Shown here: piece after piece, positions 33,310 through 43,616 of the stretch
How the letters are laid out: the number at the start of each line of letters is the position of its first letter
Numbering within the stretch: the first letter of the stretch is position 1
Origin: Spirochaetota bacterium
GTDB lineage: Bacteria; Spirochaetota; Spirochaetia; Treponematales; Rectinemataceae
DNA length: 64,000 nt
NCBI GenBank assembly: GCA_022711355.1
Contig: JAKLFE010000001.1
Location: forward strand, 1 to 64,000
Reading direction: 5' to 3'
Position numbers and translations under genes: made by a program
The notes under the pieces: model-generated
The model's input: the letters and a program-made list of their open reading frames with translations, nothing else
What the model was told of the DNA's origin: nothing
Databases searched by the model: none

Positions 33310-33382
33310 CGGCCCCTTCGTCTATCGGTTAGGACAAAAGATTCTCAATCTTTAAAGAGGAGTTCGACTCTCCTAGGGGCTA
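33310..33382 (+). tRNA. tRNA-Glu (CTC); probable prophage attachment site
   Basis: Cloverleaf: acceptor GGCCCCT/AGGGGCT with a terminal G-T pair, anticodon stem AAAGA/TCTTT with loop TTCTCAA (anticodon CTC at 33343-33345), and a T arm with TTCGACT. No CCA is encoded. The phage integrase begins 95 bases downstream, the usual layout for integration into a tRNA 3' end, so the core attachment sequence probably lies within the 3' half of this gene. The other attachment copy is outside the window. Confidence 0.92.
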
Positions 33383-33420
33383 AAAAGCACGACGTAATTC
33401 CTTATTACGCCGTGCTTTTT
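33382..33420 (+). terminator. Rho-independent terminator after tRNA-Glu
   Basis: AAAAAGCACGACGTAAT pairs with ATTACGCCGTGCTTTTT around a short TCCTT loop, with one mismatch (A/C), followed by CTTTTT. The A-rich left and T-rich right arms make it potentially bidirectional. It could be host or phage derived, since the junction falls here. Confidence 0.8.
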
Positions 33421-33476: not shown

Positions 33477-34685
33477 ATGGGCAGGCCCCGAAAAGAAATC
33501 AAGTACAAACTCGACCAGGCCTCCGGGCGCTACATGGTGAGTTTCGCGGAGAGCCCAGAGACCTTCCATATGACCCCCGAGACGGATCTCGAGAAGGCTC
33601 TCGCGTGGGGCCGCCGGAACAAAAACCGGATCCTCGCGGCCCCCGAGAAGCCCCTCCTCTTCAAGGACCTGGCGCCCGGCTTCTTCGATGAGGACGGCGC
33701 GTGGTATCAGGATCGCGTGAAGAAAGGTCAGCCCATGACCGCGGCCTCGCTCGGGATCCGGCAGAGTCATATCGTCAACTACATCGTCCCGCTCTTCGGC
33801 GATTACGACATCCGCGAGATCCTCGGCGCCGATATCGATCGCATCATCCTCGACGCGGAGCGCTTCACGGCCCGCGAAGGCGCGACGACTGCCGCGGCAA
33901 AGAAGCCGCTCGCACGCGGAACCAGGTCGAAGCTCCTCTACTCCCTGAAGCTCATGTACGATCGCTGGATCTATCTCGGCCTCGTGAAGCATAACCCGAC
34001 GGCTATCATCCAGAAGTATTCCAAGGATCCGGAACGGCCGCGCTCCGCCCTCCCCGAGGAGGCCCTCGATCGGCTCTTCCCGGCAACCCATGGCGAGCTC
34101 GTCCAGGTTTGGGGATCCTCCATGTGGGCATCTTTGATGCTTGTGCTCTGGGACACTGGCAACCGACCGGGAGAAGTGCGGGCCCCGCTCTGGGGCGAGT
34201 ACTACCCAGAAGAGCGATACCTCCCCGTCCGCAAGGCCATCGAAGGCGGCACGAAGGACAAGAAAAAAGGAACCAAGGGCGGGACGATCAAGCCGTCGTA
34301 TCTCTCAGAACGGACGGCTCAGGAGCTCGCAATCTGGCGAGCCGAGAGCCGATTCCACCAGGATACGGACTATATCTTCACCGTGACGGGGAAAGCCCCC
34401 GTCACGGATGCCGCGATCGGAGATGCATTCGCTCGCGCTTTAGCTCGCCTCAGGTATGACTCGAATGGATGGACTCCGTACTATTTAAGACATACATTCG
34501 TCACCTATGCACTACGATCGCTTGACGATCTTGAGGTACAAATGCTAACTGGGCACACAAACCTGGCGACCAACAAGCTGTACCGCCATCCTACTGACGA
34601 AATTATGCTTGAACGCACGAAGCATCTTCGAAACAAACTCGATCAAAGAAGAACTAGCACTTCAAAAAAAAGAGATGCGAGATAG
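33477..34685 (+). CDS. int: Phage tyrosine integrase
   Basis: This 402-residue site-specific recombinase has an N-terminal arm-binding/AP2-like region (1-60), a SAM-like core-binding domain (about 70-180) and a catalytic domain with R230 (DTGNRPGEV), R338 (YYLRHTF, where the usual first His of HxxR is Tyr), H360 (LTGHTN) and nucleophile Y369 (NKLYRHP). It drives integration and excision, presumably at the adjacent tRNA-Glu. Codon use shifts to AT-rich in the last 200 bases. It marks the left end of the prophage. Confidence 0.95.
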   Translation: MGRPRKEIKYKLDQASGRYMVSFAESPETFHMTPETDLEKALAWGRRNKNRILAAPEKPLLFKDLAPGFFDEDGAWYQDRVKKGQPMTAASLGIRQSHIVNYIVPLFGDYDIREILGADIDRIILDAERFTAREGATTAAAKKPLARGTRSKLLYSLKLMYDRWIYLGLVKHNPTAIIQKYSKDPERPRSALPEEALDRLFPATHGELVQVWGSSMWASLMLVLWDTGNRPGEVRAPLWGEYYPEERYLPVRKAIEGGTKDKKKGTKGGTIKPSYLSERTAQELAIWRAESRFHQDTDYIFTVTGKAPVTDAAIGDAFARALARLRYDSNGWTPYYLRHTFVTYALRSLDDLEVQMLTGHTNLATNKLYRHPTDEIMLERTKHLRNKLDQRRTSTSKKRDAR

Positions 34686-34729: not shown

Positions 34730-35317
34730 ATGAACCCCACGAGGGATATTGATATACGAAGCGCCCTCTACGCCACGGAGCTTCGTCAGTATTCTGAAGA
34801 TAATGAATCGCGCGTGCTAGATGAGTTTGGAATTGAGAATGGTCGAGTGCGCATCGATGTTGCGGTAGTCAACGGTGTTTTCCATGGATTTGAGATAAAA
34901 AGCGATGCTGATACTCTCCTCCGCCTGCCAAATCAGGCGAGGGTGTACGGACTGGTTTTTGATTATCTCTGGATTGCCTGTGGTGAAAAGCATCTACGGG
35001 AGGTAATTGCCAGTGTCCCCACTTATTGGGGCATTCTAGTTGCATTGAGAAACAGGGACAGTGGCTATGTTGAAATACAAAAACATCGCGCAGCAGAACT
35101 AAATATGCATTCTTCGCCTGAATCGATAGCAAGACTTTTATGGAGAGCTGAAGCCCTTGAGTTGCTAATGCTCTTCAAGGAAGACCGTGGACTCCATGGG
35201 AAACCACGGTCATTCCTTTGTAAGCGCCTAGCGCAAGCAATTGGGAAAGATGAATTATCCCAACACGTGCGCAGCATTATCAAGAAGCGTGGAAACTGGC
35301 GAGTTGATCAACCATAA
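34730..35317 (+). CDS. sce7726-family protein with PD-(D/E)XK nuclease-like motif
   Basis: This 195-residue protein resembles the sce7726 family, which is often found beside sce7725/beta-family genes. Residues 39-58 show a restriction-nuclease-type core: RIDVAVV with D43, then FEIKSD with E55 and K57 (D-x11-ExK), followed by a helix LLRLPNQARVYGLVFDYLWI. That motif is seen directly; nuclease activity is inference. The gene is much AT-richer than its surroundings and sits right behind the integrase, a usual site for accessory cargo. It converges with the beta-family gene, the coding ends overlapping by 38 bp. A TATAAC hexamer lies about 30 bases upstream. Confidence 0.7.
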   Translation: MNPTRDIDIRSALYATELRQYSEDNESRVLDEFGIENGRVRIDVAVVNGVFHGFEIKSDADTLLRLPNQARVYGLVFDYLWIACGEKHLREVIASVPTYWGILVALRNRDSGYVEIQKHRAAELNMHSSPESIARLLWRAEALELLMLFKEDRGLHGKPRSFLCKRLAQAIGKDELSQHVRSIIKKRGNWRVDQP

Positions 35318-36356
35318 AAGTAATATGATGAGATGCCCCAACATATCGCCAAACTGATGGATTGCCAGTTCTACCTCCCTTGCTACACTGATCTATGAAT
35401 TTATCACCGGCACTATAATCAGGCCCAAGATATTGAGGTTTACCAGTCAGCTGATATGCAAGCTCATTATATTGATCAAATCCACTAAGCTTCAACGAAT
35501 GACCTTTGAGAATCATCCATTCATTTTCAACCGTATAGCGTATATTTGCAGATGCTGACATTTTCCTCGGATCAAAACCTTCAGTTAAAAATGGATGATT
35601 GACTCCGTAGTCTCCGAATGTAGGTATTCGGTTCAAAAACTTACCTTTATCTATACTCTCTTTATATAGCTTCCACTCTAGTCTGGGAAGAAAGGAAATC
35701 CCTGCAGGAATATCTCCGAGGCTTTGCGGAAAGCTCGATCCGACGATTGTATACGTTTGCCAAGAATCAATATTAGAAATCACAGTAGGCAACATACCTA
35801 CAACCATTTCTTGGATATTGAACAGTGATTCTTCGATAGATTCGAGATCAATGATAAGATGACATTCGCTCGGCCTGAGTCCGCACTCGTCTAGAATTGA
35901 AGCTATTCGTAGACCAGGAGAAGGTGCGAGCTGCCTGCCCTCGATTCGTATGCCCAATGTTCGTTTTGCCTTCGCGATCCTTATCGCCTCCGAGGTGTAC
36001 GATACTGCGCGATCAATACTAACTATGGGAATTGCATTGACGTTATATTCCGAAAACTCAGAATAAAGAACTTCAACTGGATGACTACCATTTGAGGTGC
36101 TCTCGAAATCTTCAATTAGCCAGGGATCCAGGAAAAAAGGCTTATCACGAAGACACTCGCTTAAGTAATCAGGTATGGGGCGAAGATAATCATCAATGCT
36201 CTTTGTATTCTCTCCAGTATCAGGATCAGCCGGTATAGCATCTAGTTCGATTAACGGAGTGATCCGACTCAACACTTTTTCAGGAAGTTCCTGCAGCGCG
36301 TTCCTCTCACCCTGCTTGAACTTTAGCACTGGGACGAAATGCTTTTCGTCGAACAT
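35280..36356 (-). CDS. Beta family protein (sce7725-like)
   Basis: This 358-residue protein begins YVPVLK-like (KHFVPVLKFKQGERNAL) and continues with ITPLIEL, features of the T4 beta-protein/sce7725 family. Conserved-looking blocks include IPIVSIDRAV, GIRIEGRQL, LIIDLESI, WQTYTIVGSSFP and WRYVGASHH near the C-terminus. No catalytic motif is evident. The family recurs beside sce7726 genes in variable genomic regions; a defence or toxin-antitoxin-like role has been suspected but I know of no settled function. It is strongly AT-rich compared with the phage core. It faces and overlaps the sce7726-like gene. Confidence 0.68.
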   Translation of the reverse strand: MFDEKHFVPVLKFKQGERNALQELPEKVLSRITPLIELDAIPADPDTGENTKSIDDYLRPIPDYLSECLRDKPFFLDPWLIEDFESTSNGSHPVEVLYSEFSEYNVNAIPIVSIDRAVSYTSEAIRIAKAKRTLGIRIEGRQLAPSPGLRIASILDECGLRPSECHLIIDLESIEESLFNIQEMVVGMLPTVISNIDSWQTYTIVGSSFPQSLGDIPAGISFLPRLEWKLYKESIDKGKFLNRIPTFGDYGVNHPFLTEGFDPRKMSASANIRYTVENEWMILKGHSLKLSGFDQYNELAYQLTGKPQYLGPDYSAGDKFIDQCSKGGRTGNPSVWRYVGASHHITFMVDQLASFHAS

Positions 36357-36403: not shown

Positions 36404-36640
36404 TTACAACCTTGGCGGCTTACACACCTTGCACGGCGTATACCCTTGCTCGATTGCGTCGGCCAGGCTGATGGCGATCTTCGACTTGTAGAGGAATCGG
36501 CAATCCTCGGTGTGGTAGGCGTATCCCGTGTTGGTGATATAGACCGTCGTGGATCCGTCGGCTTCGACAAGTTGCGCGCACGAGCTGGAAATGAGGAAGA
36601 GCAGCAGGAAGGCAGCTACTGCGGAAGCTCTCCACCGCAT
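36404..36640 (-). CDS. Small lipoprotein with His/Cys metal-site-like motif
   Basis: This 78-residue protein has a signal peptide with lipobox-like ISSSC (Cys21), followed by VYITNTGYAYHTEDCRFL and YTPCKVCKPP. The H...C...CxxC pattern resembles the small Ada-like metal-binding domain in many secreted proteins. The ATG at 36640 is chosen because AAGGAG lies six bases upstream; the longer reading to 36682 overlaps another small gene. Likely a lysogenic-conversion protein of unknown role. Confidence 0.65.
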   Translation of the reverse strand: MRWRASAVAAFLLLFLISSSCAQLVEADGSTTVYITNTGYAYHTEDCRFLYKSKIAISLADAIEQGYTPCKVCKPPRL

Positions 36641-36771
36641 CGATTTCTCCTTCGGAGAATCATCGATTTCACGCGAGCCCATTCACCTGAGCGGCGGAAC
36701 TCCTTCTCGGACTGCCCGGAATGAATGAGCTCGGCCGCGCGAGCGTTCTTGAGGACCTGGCGACGGTTCAT
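36616..36771 (-). CDS. Very small hypothetical protein
   Basis: A 51-codon frame (MNRRQVLKNARAAELIHSGQ then EKEFRRSGEWARVKSMILRR) precedes and overlaps the lipoprotein start by 25 bases, which would couple their translation. The protein is basic and helical. A weak GAGG lies upstream of the ATG. It has no recognised family. Confidence 0.45.
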   Translation of the reverse strand: MNRRQVLKNARAAELIHSGQSEKEFRRSGEWARVKSMILRRRNRCGGELPQ

Positions 36772-36782
36772 GTATTCCTCGG

Positions 36783-37517
36783 CTAGAATTGCTTGCGTTC
36801 ATATTCGATGACAATCTCGCCAACGTGTGGATTGGTACATGTCACCTTATAATACTTGCTTTTTCGCGCCTTAGAAAACACAAGCCCAAAATACTCTTCA
36901 TTGGGGTTTAGATCCTCACTATAGAACAGAAAGCGCTCTAGTGCTTTTAGCCATTGTTCATTGTCTTGTTCATATGAGGCCATCAACTCAGCATTTTTCT
37001 GAGCTGCAATCTGTGCGGCAGCGGGATCATAGTACGTTGTGCGACTGGTATACGTCCCTGAGTAACTCCCGTAACTCGTTTGGCCTTGGAAGCTCCCTGT
37101 TTCATTTTCATATCCAGTGCCGGCCGCGAGTCCATCCGCGGCTGCGCCTAACGCCAGAGCAACAGCTCCGATTACGTAAGCAGTTTTTTCCTTTTTGTAA
37201 TAGCTCTTCGAATCATAGACATCCACTGGCGTCCAGTTAATTCTATCAGAGCTAGTAAAAACCTTAAAATCTTTGTCTTCGATATGAATGGACTGAGAAG
37301 AGAGGTTTTTAAGCGACACCCTTAACATTAGGTCTGATTCTCGATACTCGGGATCGATGATCATTACGACTGCATCATTGCTATATACAGGTATGCTCCT
37401 ACCGCGCTCAGATTCGATTCGAGTATTATCATTCTGGAACGGTACTATTTGATAGGTTGCGCATGAAACTCCAAGTAGGCACGAAAAAACAAGCAAGGCT
37501 AATGGCGTCTTTTTCAT
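36783..37517 (-). CDS. Predicted lipoprotein, prophage cargo
   Basis: This 244-residue protein has a clear lipoprotein signal (MKKTPLALLVFSCLLGVSC, Cys20 in LLGVSC). The following domain is beta-rich (IDPEYRESDLMLRVSLKNLS, NWTPVDVYDS). A short hydrophobic Ala/Gly stretch (about 113-130, YVIGAVALALGAAADGLAAG) and a Tyr/Ser/Thr-rich segment come before a helical C-terminal part. AT-rich, unlike the phage core. Probably made from the lysogen and displayed in the envelope; function unknown. Confidence 0.7.
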   Translation of the reverse strand: MKKTPLALLVFSCLLGVSCATYQIVPFQNDNTRIESERGRSIPVYSNDAVVMIIDPEYRESDLMLRVSLKNLSSQSIHIEDKDFKVFTSSDRINWTPVDVYDSKSYYKKEKTAYVIGAVALALGAAADGLAAGTGYENETGSFQGQTSYGSYSGTYTSRTTYYDPAAAQIAAQKNAELMASYEQDNEQWLKALERFLFYSEDLNPNEEYFGLVFSKARKSKYYKVTCTNPHVGEIVIEYERKQF

Positions 37518-42791: not shown

Positions 42792-43616
42792 GTGACAGCA
42801 TCCCCGGCTCGCCCCATCGTCCGCTACCACGGGGGCAAGTGGCGCCTCGCGCCCTGGATAATCAGCTTCTTCCCGGGCCACCGGACCTATGTTGAGCCCT
42901 ACGGGGGGGGGGCGAGCGTGCTATTGCGTAAGGACCGGAGCTACTGCGAGGTCTACAACGACCTCTCGAGCGAGATGGTCAATCTCTTCCGGATGGCGCG
43001 CGACCGCGGGCCGGAGCTCCGGCGCCTCGTCGAGTTGACTCCCTTCGCCCGCGAGGAGTTCGAGCTCTCTTACGAGGAGACCGACGATGCTCTCGAACAA
43101 GCCCGGCGGACGATGGTCCGCTGCGGCATGGGCGTCGGTTCGACCGCGACGAGCGCTCGCCACCGAACCGGCTTCCGAGGTTTGGCCACCCGTCGAGGGA
43201 CGCATCCCGGGACCGACTGGGCCGGCCTCGGAGCCAACCTCGAGGCAGTCATTGAGCGCCTTCAGGGCGTTGTCATCGAGCATCGTCCCGCACTCGACGT
43301 GATCCGCTACTACGACAGCCCCAGAACGCTCCACTACATCGACCCGCCCTACCTCGCCGAAACGCGGACCTGGCAATCCGGCAAGGGCCACTACGAGTAC
43401 GAGATGAGCGATCAGGACCACGAGGAACTCGCCGCGGCCCTTTGCGGCCTCGAGGGCGCCGTCATCGTTTCGGGGTACCCGAGCGCCCTCTATGAAGAAC
43501 TGTACCGCGGATGGGATCGCGCCGAGCGGGAAGCTCTCACCGACGGTTCAGCGCATAGGACAGAGGTCCTCTGGATGCGAGGACTCGACTTCGGCTTGTT
43601 TGCAGAGGAGGTGTAA
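42792..43616 (+). CDS. Phage Dam-family DNA adenine methylase
   Basis: This 274-residue N6-adenine methyltransferase has motif I VRYHGGKWRLAPWI with FVEPYGGG-type binding (TYVEPYGGGASVLL) and catalytic motif IV DPPY (IDPPYLAE), in the order expected for Dam/M.MboI-type enzymes. No restriction partner is adjacent, so it is likely a solitary methylase that masks phage DNA. GTG start after GCGAGGAG. The last residues lie 3 bp before the next gene. Confidence 0.9.
   Translation: MTASPARPIVRYHGGKWRLAPWIISFFPGHRTYVEPYGGGASVLLRKDRSYCEVYNDLSSEMVNLFRMARDRGPELRRLVELTPFAREEFELSYEETDDALEQARRTMVRCGMGVGSTATSARHRTGFRGLATRRGTHPGTDWAGLGANLEAVIERLQGVVIEHRPALDVIRYYDSPRTLHYIDPPYLAETRTWQSGKGHYEYEMSDQDHEELAAALCGLEGAVIVSGYPSALYEELYRGWDRAEREALTDGSAHRTEVLWMRGLDFGLFAEEV

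Follow-up and report, generated by a model that had tools for sequence, protein, structure and literature searches.

A convergent beta/Cll gene pair with a cross-phylum antisense overlap as cargo of a Spirochaetota prophage, and its relation to the gop-beta-cII and PD-lambda-2 defense systems

Described beta-containing systems and the pair in the window

Proteins of the beta family take part in two tested anti-phage systems, gop-beta-cII and PD-lambda-2, and a beta gene paired with a cII-like gene, Cll, is the subject of this analysis of 64,000 nucleotides from a Spirochaetota bacterium (assembly GCA_022711355.1, contig JAKLFE010000001.1, positions 1 to 64,000; hereafter the window). The gop-beta-cII cassette confers protection from lambda and P1 on Escherichia coli, and its gop gene is toxic when beta is missing (PMC9122126). 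In the satellite phage P4 (NC_001609), the integrase and cII genes share one strand, and beta and gop occupy the opposite one; gop lies upstream of beta, cII and beta converge, and the annotation assigns P4 cII to the sce7726 family. PD-lambda-2 consists of a HigB-like gene, an XRE-peptidase gene and then a beta homologue, which is required for defense against lambda-vir and dispensable for toxin neutralization (PMC9519451). As published, this system has three genes and no cII. In the window, the two genes and their shared segment are arranged as follows.

34730–35317, + strand: Cll, a sce7726-family protein of 195 amino acids (aa), predicted PD-(D/E)XK (MmcB-like) nuclease (NF033832, PADLOC, structural model)
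35280–36356, − strand: Beta-family protein (P4 beta/PD-lambda-2C family) of 358 aa, predicted TIM-barrel-like fold (PF14350, PADLOC, structural model)
35280–35317, no strand assigned: 38-bp antisense overlap of both reading frames (from the open reading frame coordinates)

The first gene is a member of the sce7726 family, scoring 160.7 bits against NF033832 (sce7726_fam, cut-off 70), and PADLOC calls it 'cll' (1e-22). The second belongs to PF14350 (Beta_protein; 216.6 bits, cut-off 27, residues 8–349 of 358); the closest PADLOC family is PD-Lambda-2_C (7e-52), with the P4-type 'beta' far weaker (2.5e-9). An earlier, sequence-only reading of this stretch had described a tail-to-tail pair with a 38-bp overlap, which the coordinates bear out, and had labeled the second gene 'beta/sce7725-like', of which the beta part stands and the sce7725 part does not. 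The sce7725 family (NF033831) is the other known neighbor of sce7726, reported from mobile or variable regions alongside it (PMC12457778, PMC9394441), but it does not match the second gene of the window, for which the NCBIfam scan returned no family at E <= 1, and this candidate was rejected. Genome searches with NF033831 gave no match in any genome and are hence uninformative on the distribution of sce7725.

The window resembles P4 in its order of integrase and cII followed by a convergent beta, and differs from it in having no gop beside beta; phmmer found no gop homologue in the window. In P4, moreover, cII (264 aa) has a longer C-terminus than Cll, cII and beta lie 27 bp apart without overlap, and beta itself is distant from that of the window. 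Relative to PD-lambda-2, the window has the most similar beta but neither toxin-associated gene: the two open reading frames upstream of beta (36404–36682 and 36786–37517) match no PADLOC family and include no HigB or XRE-peptidase. Since none of gop, HigB or XRE-peptidase lies beside beta, the window holds a stand-alone beta/Cll pair.

Similar stand-alone, convergent and overlapping pairs occur in the Rac-SA53 prophage (KU052037) and in the Gordonia/Mycolicibacterium phages Powerball, DumpsterDude and Mycofy1; these belong to other phages, have other neighbors, and encode Cll proteins 37–43% and beta proteins about 23–29% identical to those of the window. With query coverage of 80% or more required, a pair of the Rac-SA53 type is present in 93 of 5426 complete E. 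coli genomes, which makes these a convenient test bed. The deposited annotation misses Cll in DumpsterDude (MT024859, 28669–29226) and Mycofy1 (PQ356897, 26029–26586); the DumpsterDude record instead has another small gene on the strand opposite Cll.

Register, orientation and co-occurrence across phyla

The position of the overlap was expressed as a register, the distance from the first base of the codon for the conserved C-terminal Trp of Cll to the first base of the codon for the conserved C-terminal His of beta. In the window, the Trp190 codon of Cll begins at 35297 and the first base of the beta His344 codon lies exactly 30 bp further, with the two frames overlapping in the phase that pairs codon positions 1:1, 2:3 and 3:2. 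Among 157 distinct entries with usable pairs, reduced to 113 pairs by dereplication, the 30-bp register is exact in 92 of the 113, from at least 15 phyla. These include Acidobacteriota, Actinomycetota, Bacillota, Bacteroidota, Chloroflexota, Elusimicrobiota, Gemmatimonadota, Myxococcota, Nitrospirota, Omnitrophota, Planctomycetota, Pseudomonadota, Thermodesulfobacteriota and several candidate phyla; Rac-SA53, Powerball and Mycofy1 gave the same value. The register is common to these relatives even though their beta proteins are only about 20–34% identical to that of the window.

Because the register is fixed, one stretch of DNA encodes both the W-R tail of Cll and the Q-L-[AS]-[STN] tail of beta. 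At the Arg codon within the overlap, the wobble position holds A in 90 of 92 pairs (1.85 bits). The invariant Arg187, which lies four codons upstream in a part with less mutual constraint between the frames, served as a control; its wobble base is close to random (0.16 bits). The fixed wobble base inside the overlap, set against the free one upstream, supports a constraint acting on two frames at once. The phase by itself is unremarkable, since it is the commonest among convergent overlaps, accounting for 49% of those longer than 4 bp (PMC2174442); what stands out is the identical register.

Register states were mapped on a Cll tree built without the overlapping columns, on which 8 changes are needed, against 20.5 for shuffled states. 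A 35-bp register forms one clade in this tree, with its named members in Pseudomonadota; the 35-bp loci (L035, L039, L115, L122, L131, L153 and L167) use another phase and keep both proteins. Pairs without any overlap are still convergent and still carry both tails, which indicates that each tail is under a constraint of its own. In a survey of long overlaps in prokaryotes, conservation of real convergent ones was mostly limited to very close species (PMC2478687), and an overlap held fixed across phyla is therefore unusual. This frozen antisense overlap was unexpected, and within an incomplete literature search we know of no earlier report of one.

A regulatory role for the overlap, in which antisense pairing or colliding transcription would couple the two mRNAs, might be proposed from the convergence of all pairs found, including those that have lost the overlap. 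The sequence-only reading had likewise pointed to antisense RNA over both 3' ends. We consider such a role improbable: neither a terminator nor an Rfam-type RNA family or regulatory RNA was found in the junction of Cll and beta, and the conservation of the tails in non-overlapping pairs means that coding constraint explains the lock. The fixed register represents a rare antisense coding overlap kept across phyla. The lock also predicts that any attempt to move or delete one of the genes would disturb its partner, a point of practical relevance for the design of knockouts.

Orientation was equally uniform. Both genes are convergent in 89 of 89 entries from IMG/VR and phage loci (a few places are represented twice) and in 74 of 74 pairs from GTDB loci; the loci, more than 150 in all, included none with a tandem or divergent pair. 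Both sets were gathered through a Cll search and are therefore no measure of how often Beta stands alone. Genome samples address co-occurrence more directly. Among 296 genomes of the window's phylum, sce7726 above the cut-off is found in exactly three; these are also the three with Beta, and the two genes are neighbors in convergent orientation (Fisher p 2e-7). A second sample, 297 genomes from the order to which a Methylobacterium belongs, includes 12 with Beta, 8 with sce7726 above the cut-off and 7 with both (Fisher p 2e-10), each of the 7 pairs being adjacent and convergent. Together with the register shared by most dereplicated pairs, these results place the arrangement well outside chance expectation and are strongly positive for the pairing that the sequence-only reading had pointed out. 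The association is strong and not absolute: one genome of the Methylobacterium-order sample (G525) has sce7726 without Beta, and Cll occurs without beta at six further loci (L137, L159, L164, L150, L008 and L010).

These solitary Cll genes bear on the possibility that the pair is a two-gene toxin-antitoxin unit, with Cll as toxin and beta as its direct antitoxin, serving mainly to maintain the prophage. A nuclease-like protein and a partner, encoded compactly on mobile elements and nearly always together, would fit such a unit. However, its occurrence without beta argues against Cll being simply toxic in those hosts, the gene order is convergent instead of operonic, and the toxin of the known systems has a gene of its own, which the window lacks; this explanation is accordingly judged unlikely.

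Two exceptional arrangements were noted in the surveys. Betas without Cll at L225, L228 and L229 (at around 5–7 kb) follow a membrane-protein-like gene and a gene of about 180–200 aa, an arrangement that is perhaps another Beta-containing toxin module. On a Leptospira noguchii plasmid (L231, 2929–3741), an sce7726 gene and a short hypothetical gene converge and overlap, the latter perhaps being a remnant of beta.

Predicted folds, toxin neighbors and proposed function

Structural models were obtained for both proteins. The nuclease core proposed for Cll from sequence alone (D43, E55 and K57) proved to be invariant in all 113 dereplicated relatives, as expected of a nuclease triad. E32, D61, R65, L66, Q69 and R187 are likewise invariant in the 113 sequences, and R41 is also among the conserved residues, giving the motif R-x-D ... 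E-x-K. The Cll model is of high confidence, with a predicted local distance difference test score (pLDDT) of 95.3 and a predicted template modeling score (pTM) of 0.90. It places a helix (6–23), three strands (28–35, 40–47 and 51–57), a helix (66–74) and a strand (79–85) in the order α-β-β-β-α-β, with D43 on strand 2 and E55 and K57 on strand 3. The topology of this modeled core is that of the classical PD-(D/E)XK fold. A Foldseek search of BFVD returned MmcB-like DNA repair proteins (about 1e-6, probability 1.00). MmcB-like proteins (PF06319) have the R-x-D ... E-x-K spacing and a conserved first-strand Glu in common with Cll and are its structural neighbors, whereas their Pfam model does not match Cll, which has an additional helical C-terminal part and a beta partner. 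The invariant residues, the modeled topology and the MmcB-like neighbors together support the PD-(D/E)XK assignment of the sequence-only reading, and Cll is a predicted nuclease, as judged from sequence and model.

With MmcB-like repair proteins as the nearest annotated structural neighbors, the pair could in principle be repair or recombination cargo, in which Cll would serve the phage as a repair nuclease and beta would be an accessory enzyme. Little probability is given to this alternative, because the pair adjoins defense toxins in P4, in Pasteurella phage Pmp11 and in 28 PD-lambda-2-type loci, and because systems with beta or cII protect against phage.

The beta model is similarly confident (pLDDT 94.7, pTM 0.93). 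Its structural neighbors are TIM barrels, the best being a designed protein (3.5e-5, probability 1.00); as overall TM-scores are low, 'TIM-barrel-like' is the safer wording. In the model, the conserved residues D77, R137, D170, R225 and D249 are located at the ends of strands or close to them, a placement that suggests a conserved pocket.

Clustering of the genes flanking the 113 pairs revealed an XRE-peptidase gene directly upstream of beta in 28 loci, preceded by a HigB-like gene in 22 of them. All 28 of these PD-lambda-2-type loci (L103, L104, L107, L108, L111, L112 and 22 others) have a convergent Cll that overlaps beta in the 30-bp register. In one such locus, PADLOC identified PD-Lambda-2_A (1.7e-36), _B (1.8e-140) and _C, with cll (6e-29) on the opposite strand, and the annotation of a Sinorhizobium plasmid agrees with this layout of PD-lambda-2 plus Cll. 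Five HigB/XRE-peptidase pairs on other plasmids have no annotated beta and no annotated sce7726 either. Genes of the gop type were seen only in P4 and in Pmp11, where the gene was assigned by its position and a predicted membrane segment, without a PADLOC match; Cll and beta do not overlap in either. At the other extreme, 25 pairs have no same-strand open reading frame within 200 bp upstream of beta, as in Rac-SA53. The clustering gave no third conserved partner of stand-alone pairs, PD-lambda-2 A/B being the sole widely recurrent set.

The absence of a toxin gene from the window and from many relatives, together with the description of PD-lambda-2C as related to a P4 antitoxin (PMC9519451), would suit an orphan antitoxin, by which beta, with Cll, would neutralize Gop- or HigB-like toxins of other mobile elements as counter-defense instead of defense, letting the prophage withstand exclusion by those toxins. 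This seems doubtful to us, since the beta homologue of PD-lambda-2 is needed for defense and not for toxin neutralization, and since the strictly conserved nuclease site of Cll would be left unexplained.

The explanation we favor, at about even confidence, is that the pair is a stand-alone beta/Cll module of the gop-beta-cII/PD-lambda-2 kind of anti-phage defense, with Cll as effector and beta as regulator or sensor. Cll, as an MmcB-like PD-(D/E)XK nuclease, would be the likely effector, and beta, as a TIM-barrel-like protein with a conserved pocket, would restrain it, sense infection, or both. Infection by a competing phage would free Cll or direct it to cut DNA; the phage or the cell would then die and the prophage's host population would survive. 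Elsewhere, exchangeable toxins (gop, or HigB with XRE-peptidase) would join the core upstream of beta. The two genes would be kept together because their conserved C-terminal tails lie on opposite strands of the same DNA. A regulatory or sensing role for beta is suggested by its relatives, which oppose the Gop toxin in P4 and are indispensable for defense in PD-lambda-2; by analogy with relatives, and from its cargo position, the bare pair may likewise be defensive. In proposing a phage-defense or toxin-antitoxin unit, the sequence-only reading was broadly right, and the proposal is partly supported. It professed to know of no settled mechanism, however, and overlooked the place of both families in tested defense systems, P4 gop-beta-cII and PD-lambda-2.

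Several observations weigh against a defensive beta/Cll module. PD-lambda-2 is functional with no genes other than A, B and C (PMC9519451). Five of the 12 Beta genomes in the Methylobacterium-order sample have no Cll, so that beta does not always need it. Convergent genes do not form one operon, which is unusual for toxin-antitoxin pairs. As for the predicted nuclease, Foldseek against the PDB gave no match for Cll below E 0.001 (RecE, Hjc, XPF and Cap4 are among those listed), and hhalign, which aligns the motif with equivalent residues of MmcB, does so with weak statistics (P = 0.034).

A bolder version, which we regard as tentative and less likely than not, holds that beta and Cll are an autonomous two-protein defense core that predates the spread of the known systems and whose two genes became fused at their tails by the antisense overlap, in a single exact register in over a dozen phyla. 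The gop and HigB/XRE-peptidase genes would then be exchangeable add-ons, and Cll would be an unrecognized fourth component of PD-lambda-2 in many cases. Independently of this proposal, gop-beta-cII and PD-lambda-2, described apart, have a beta/Cll core in common in many genomes. Tools that require gop, or that end at PD-lambda-2 A-B-C, therefore overlook both the stand-alone pairs and the nuclease gene on the opposite strand. The role of the two families in defense was already known; new here are the exclusively convergent arrangement of the pairs, the frozen 30-bp register and the core common to the two systems.

The prophage and the position of the pair within it

The pair lies at the left end of a prophage integrated at a tRNA gene, and the left boundary comprises the following features.

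33311–33382, + strand: tRNA-Glu (CTC), the integration site (ARAGORN, Rfam)
33362–33383, no strand assigned: left attachment site (attL) core GTTCGACTCTCCTAGGGGCTAA, a 22-bp repeat of the tRNA-Glu 3' end
33477–34685, + strand: tyrosine integrase (PF00589, 1.7e-10; phrog_1, 6.4e-34)

The second copy of the repeat, GTTCGACTCTCCTAGGGGCTAA, is absent from the window itself and was located on the wider contig at 73339–73360 (attR), beyond the 64 kb analyzed; the two copies delimit an element of about 40.0 kb. Genes for a terminase, a connector, the major head protein and tail proteins lie between them and confirm a tailed prophage. Cll starts 44 bp after the end of the integrase gene at 34685. The G+C content of the beta/Cll pair is 0.44–0.46, compared with 0.58–0.69 for most of the phage core and 0.65–0.78 for the host DNA on the left, and the AT-rich stretch starts already in the 3' part of the integrase gene. 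The pair is thus prophage cargo, as the sequence-only reading had it from the position behind the integrase and the AT-richness; the attachment repeats and the phage structural genes agree.

Among the 113 pairs, an integrase gene is followed immediately by Cll only in the window and in P4 NC_001609 (66-bp gap). With these two cases, the adjacency was rejected as a general rule, and it is either a coincidence or a common cargo slot. On the other side of the pair, 47 bp upstream of beta, the gene at 36404–36682 (− strand) encodes a small protein that looks secreted and ends in an Ada-like C-x-x-C tail; it probably belongs to the phage core and not to the module. Further into the prophage, the gene at 42792–43616 (+ strand) encodes a phage DNA methyltransferase (phrog_56, 4e-61).
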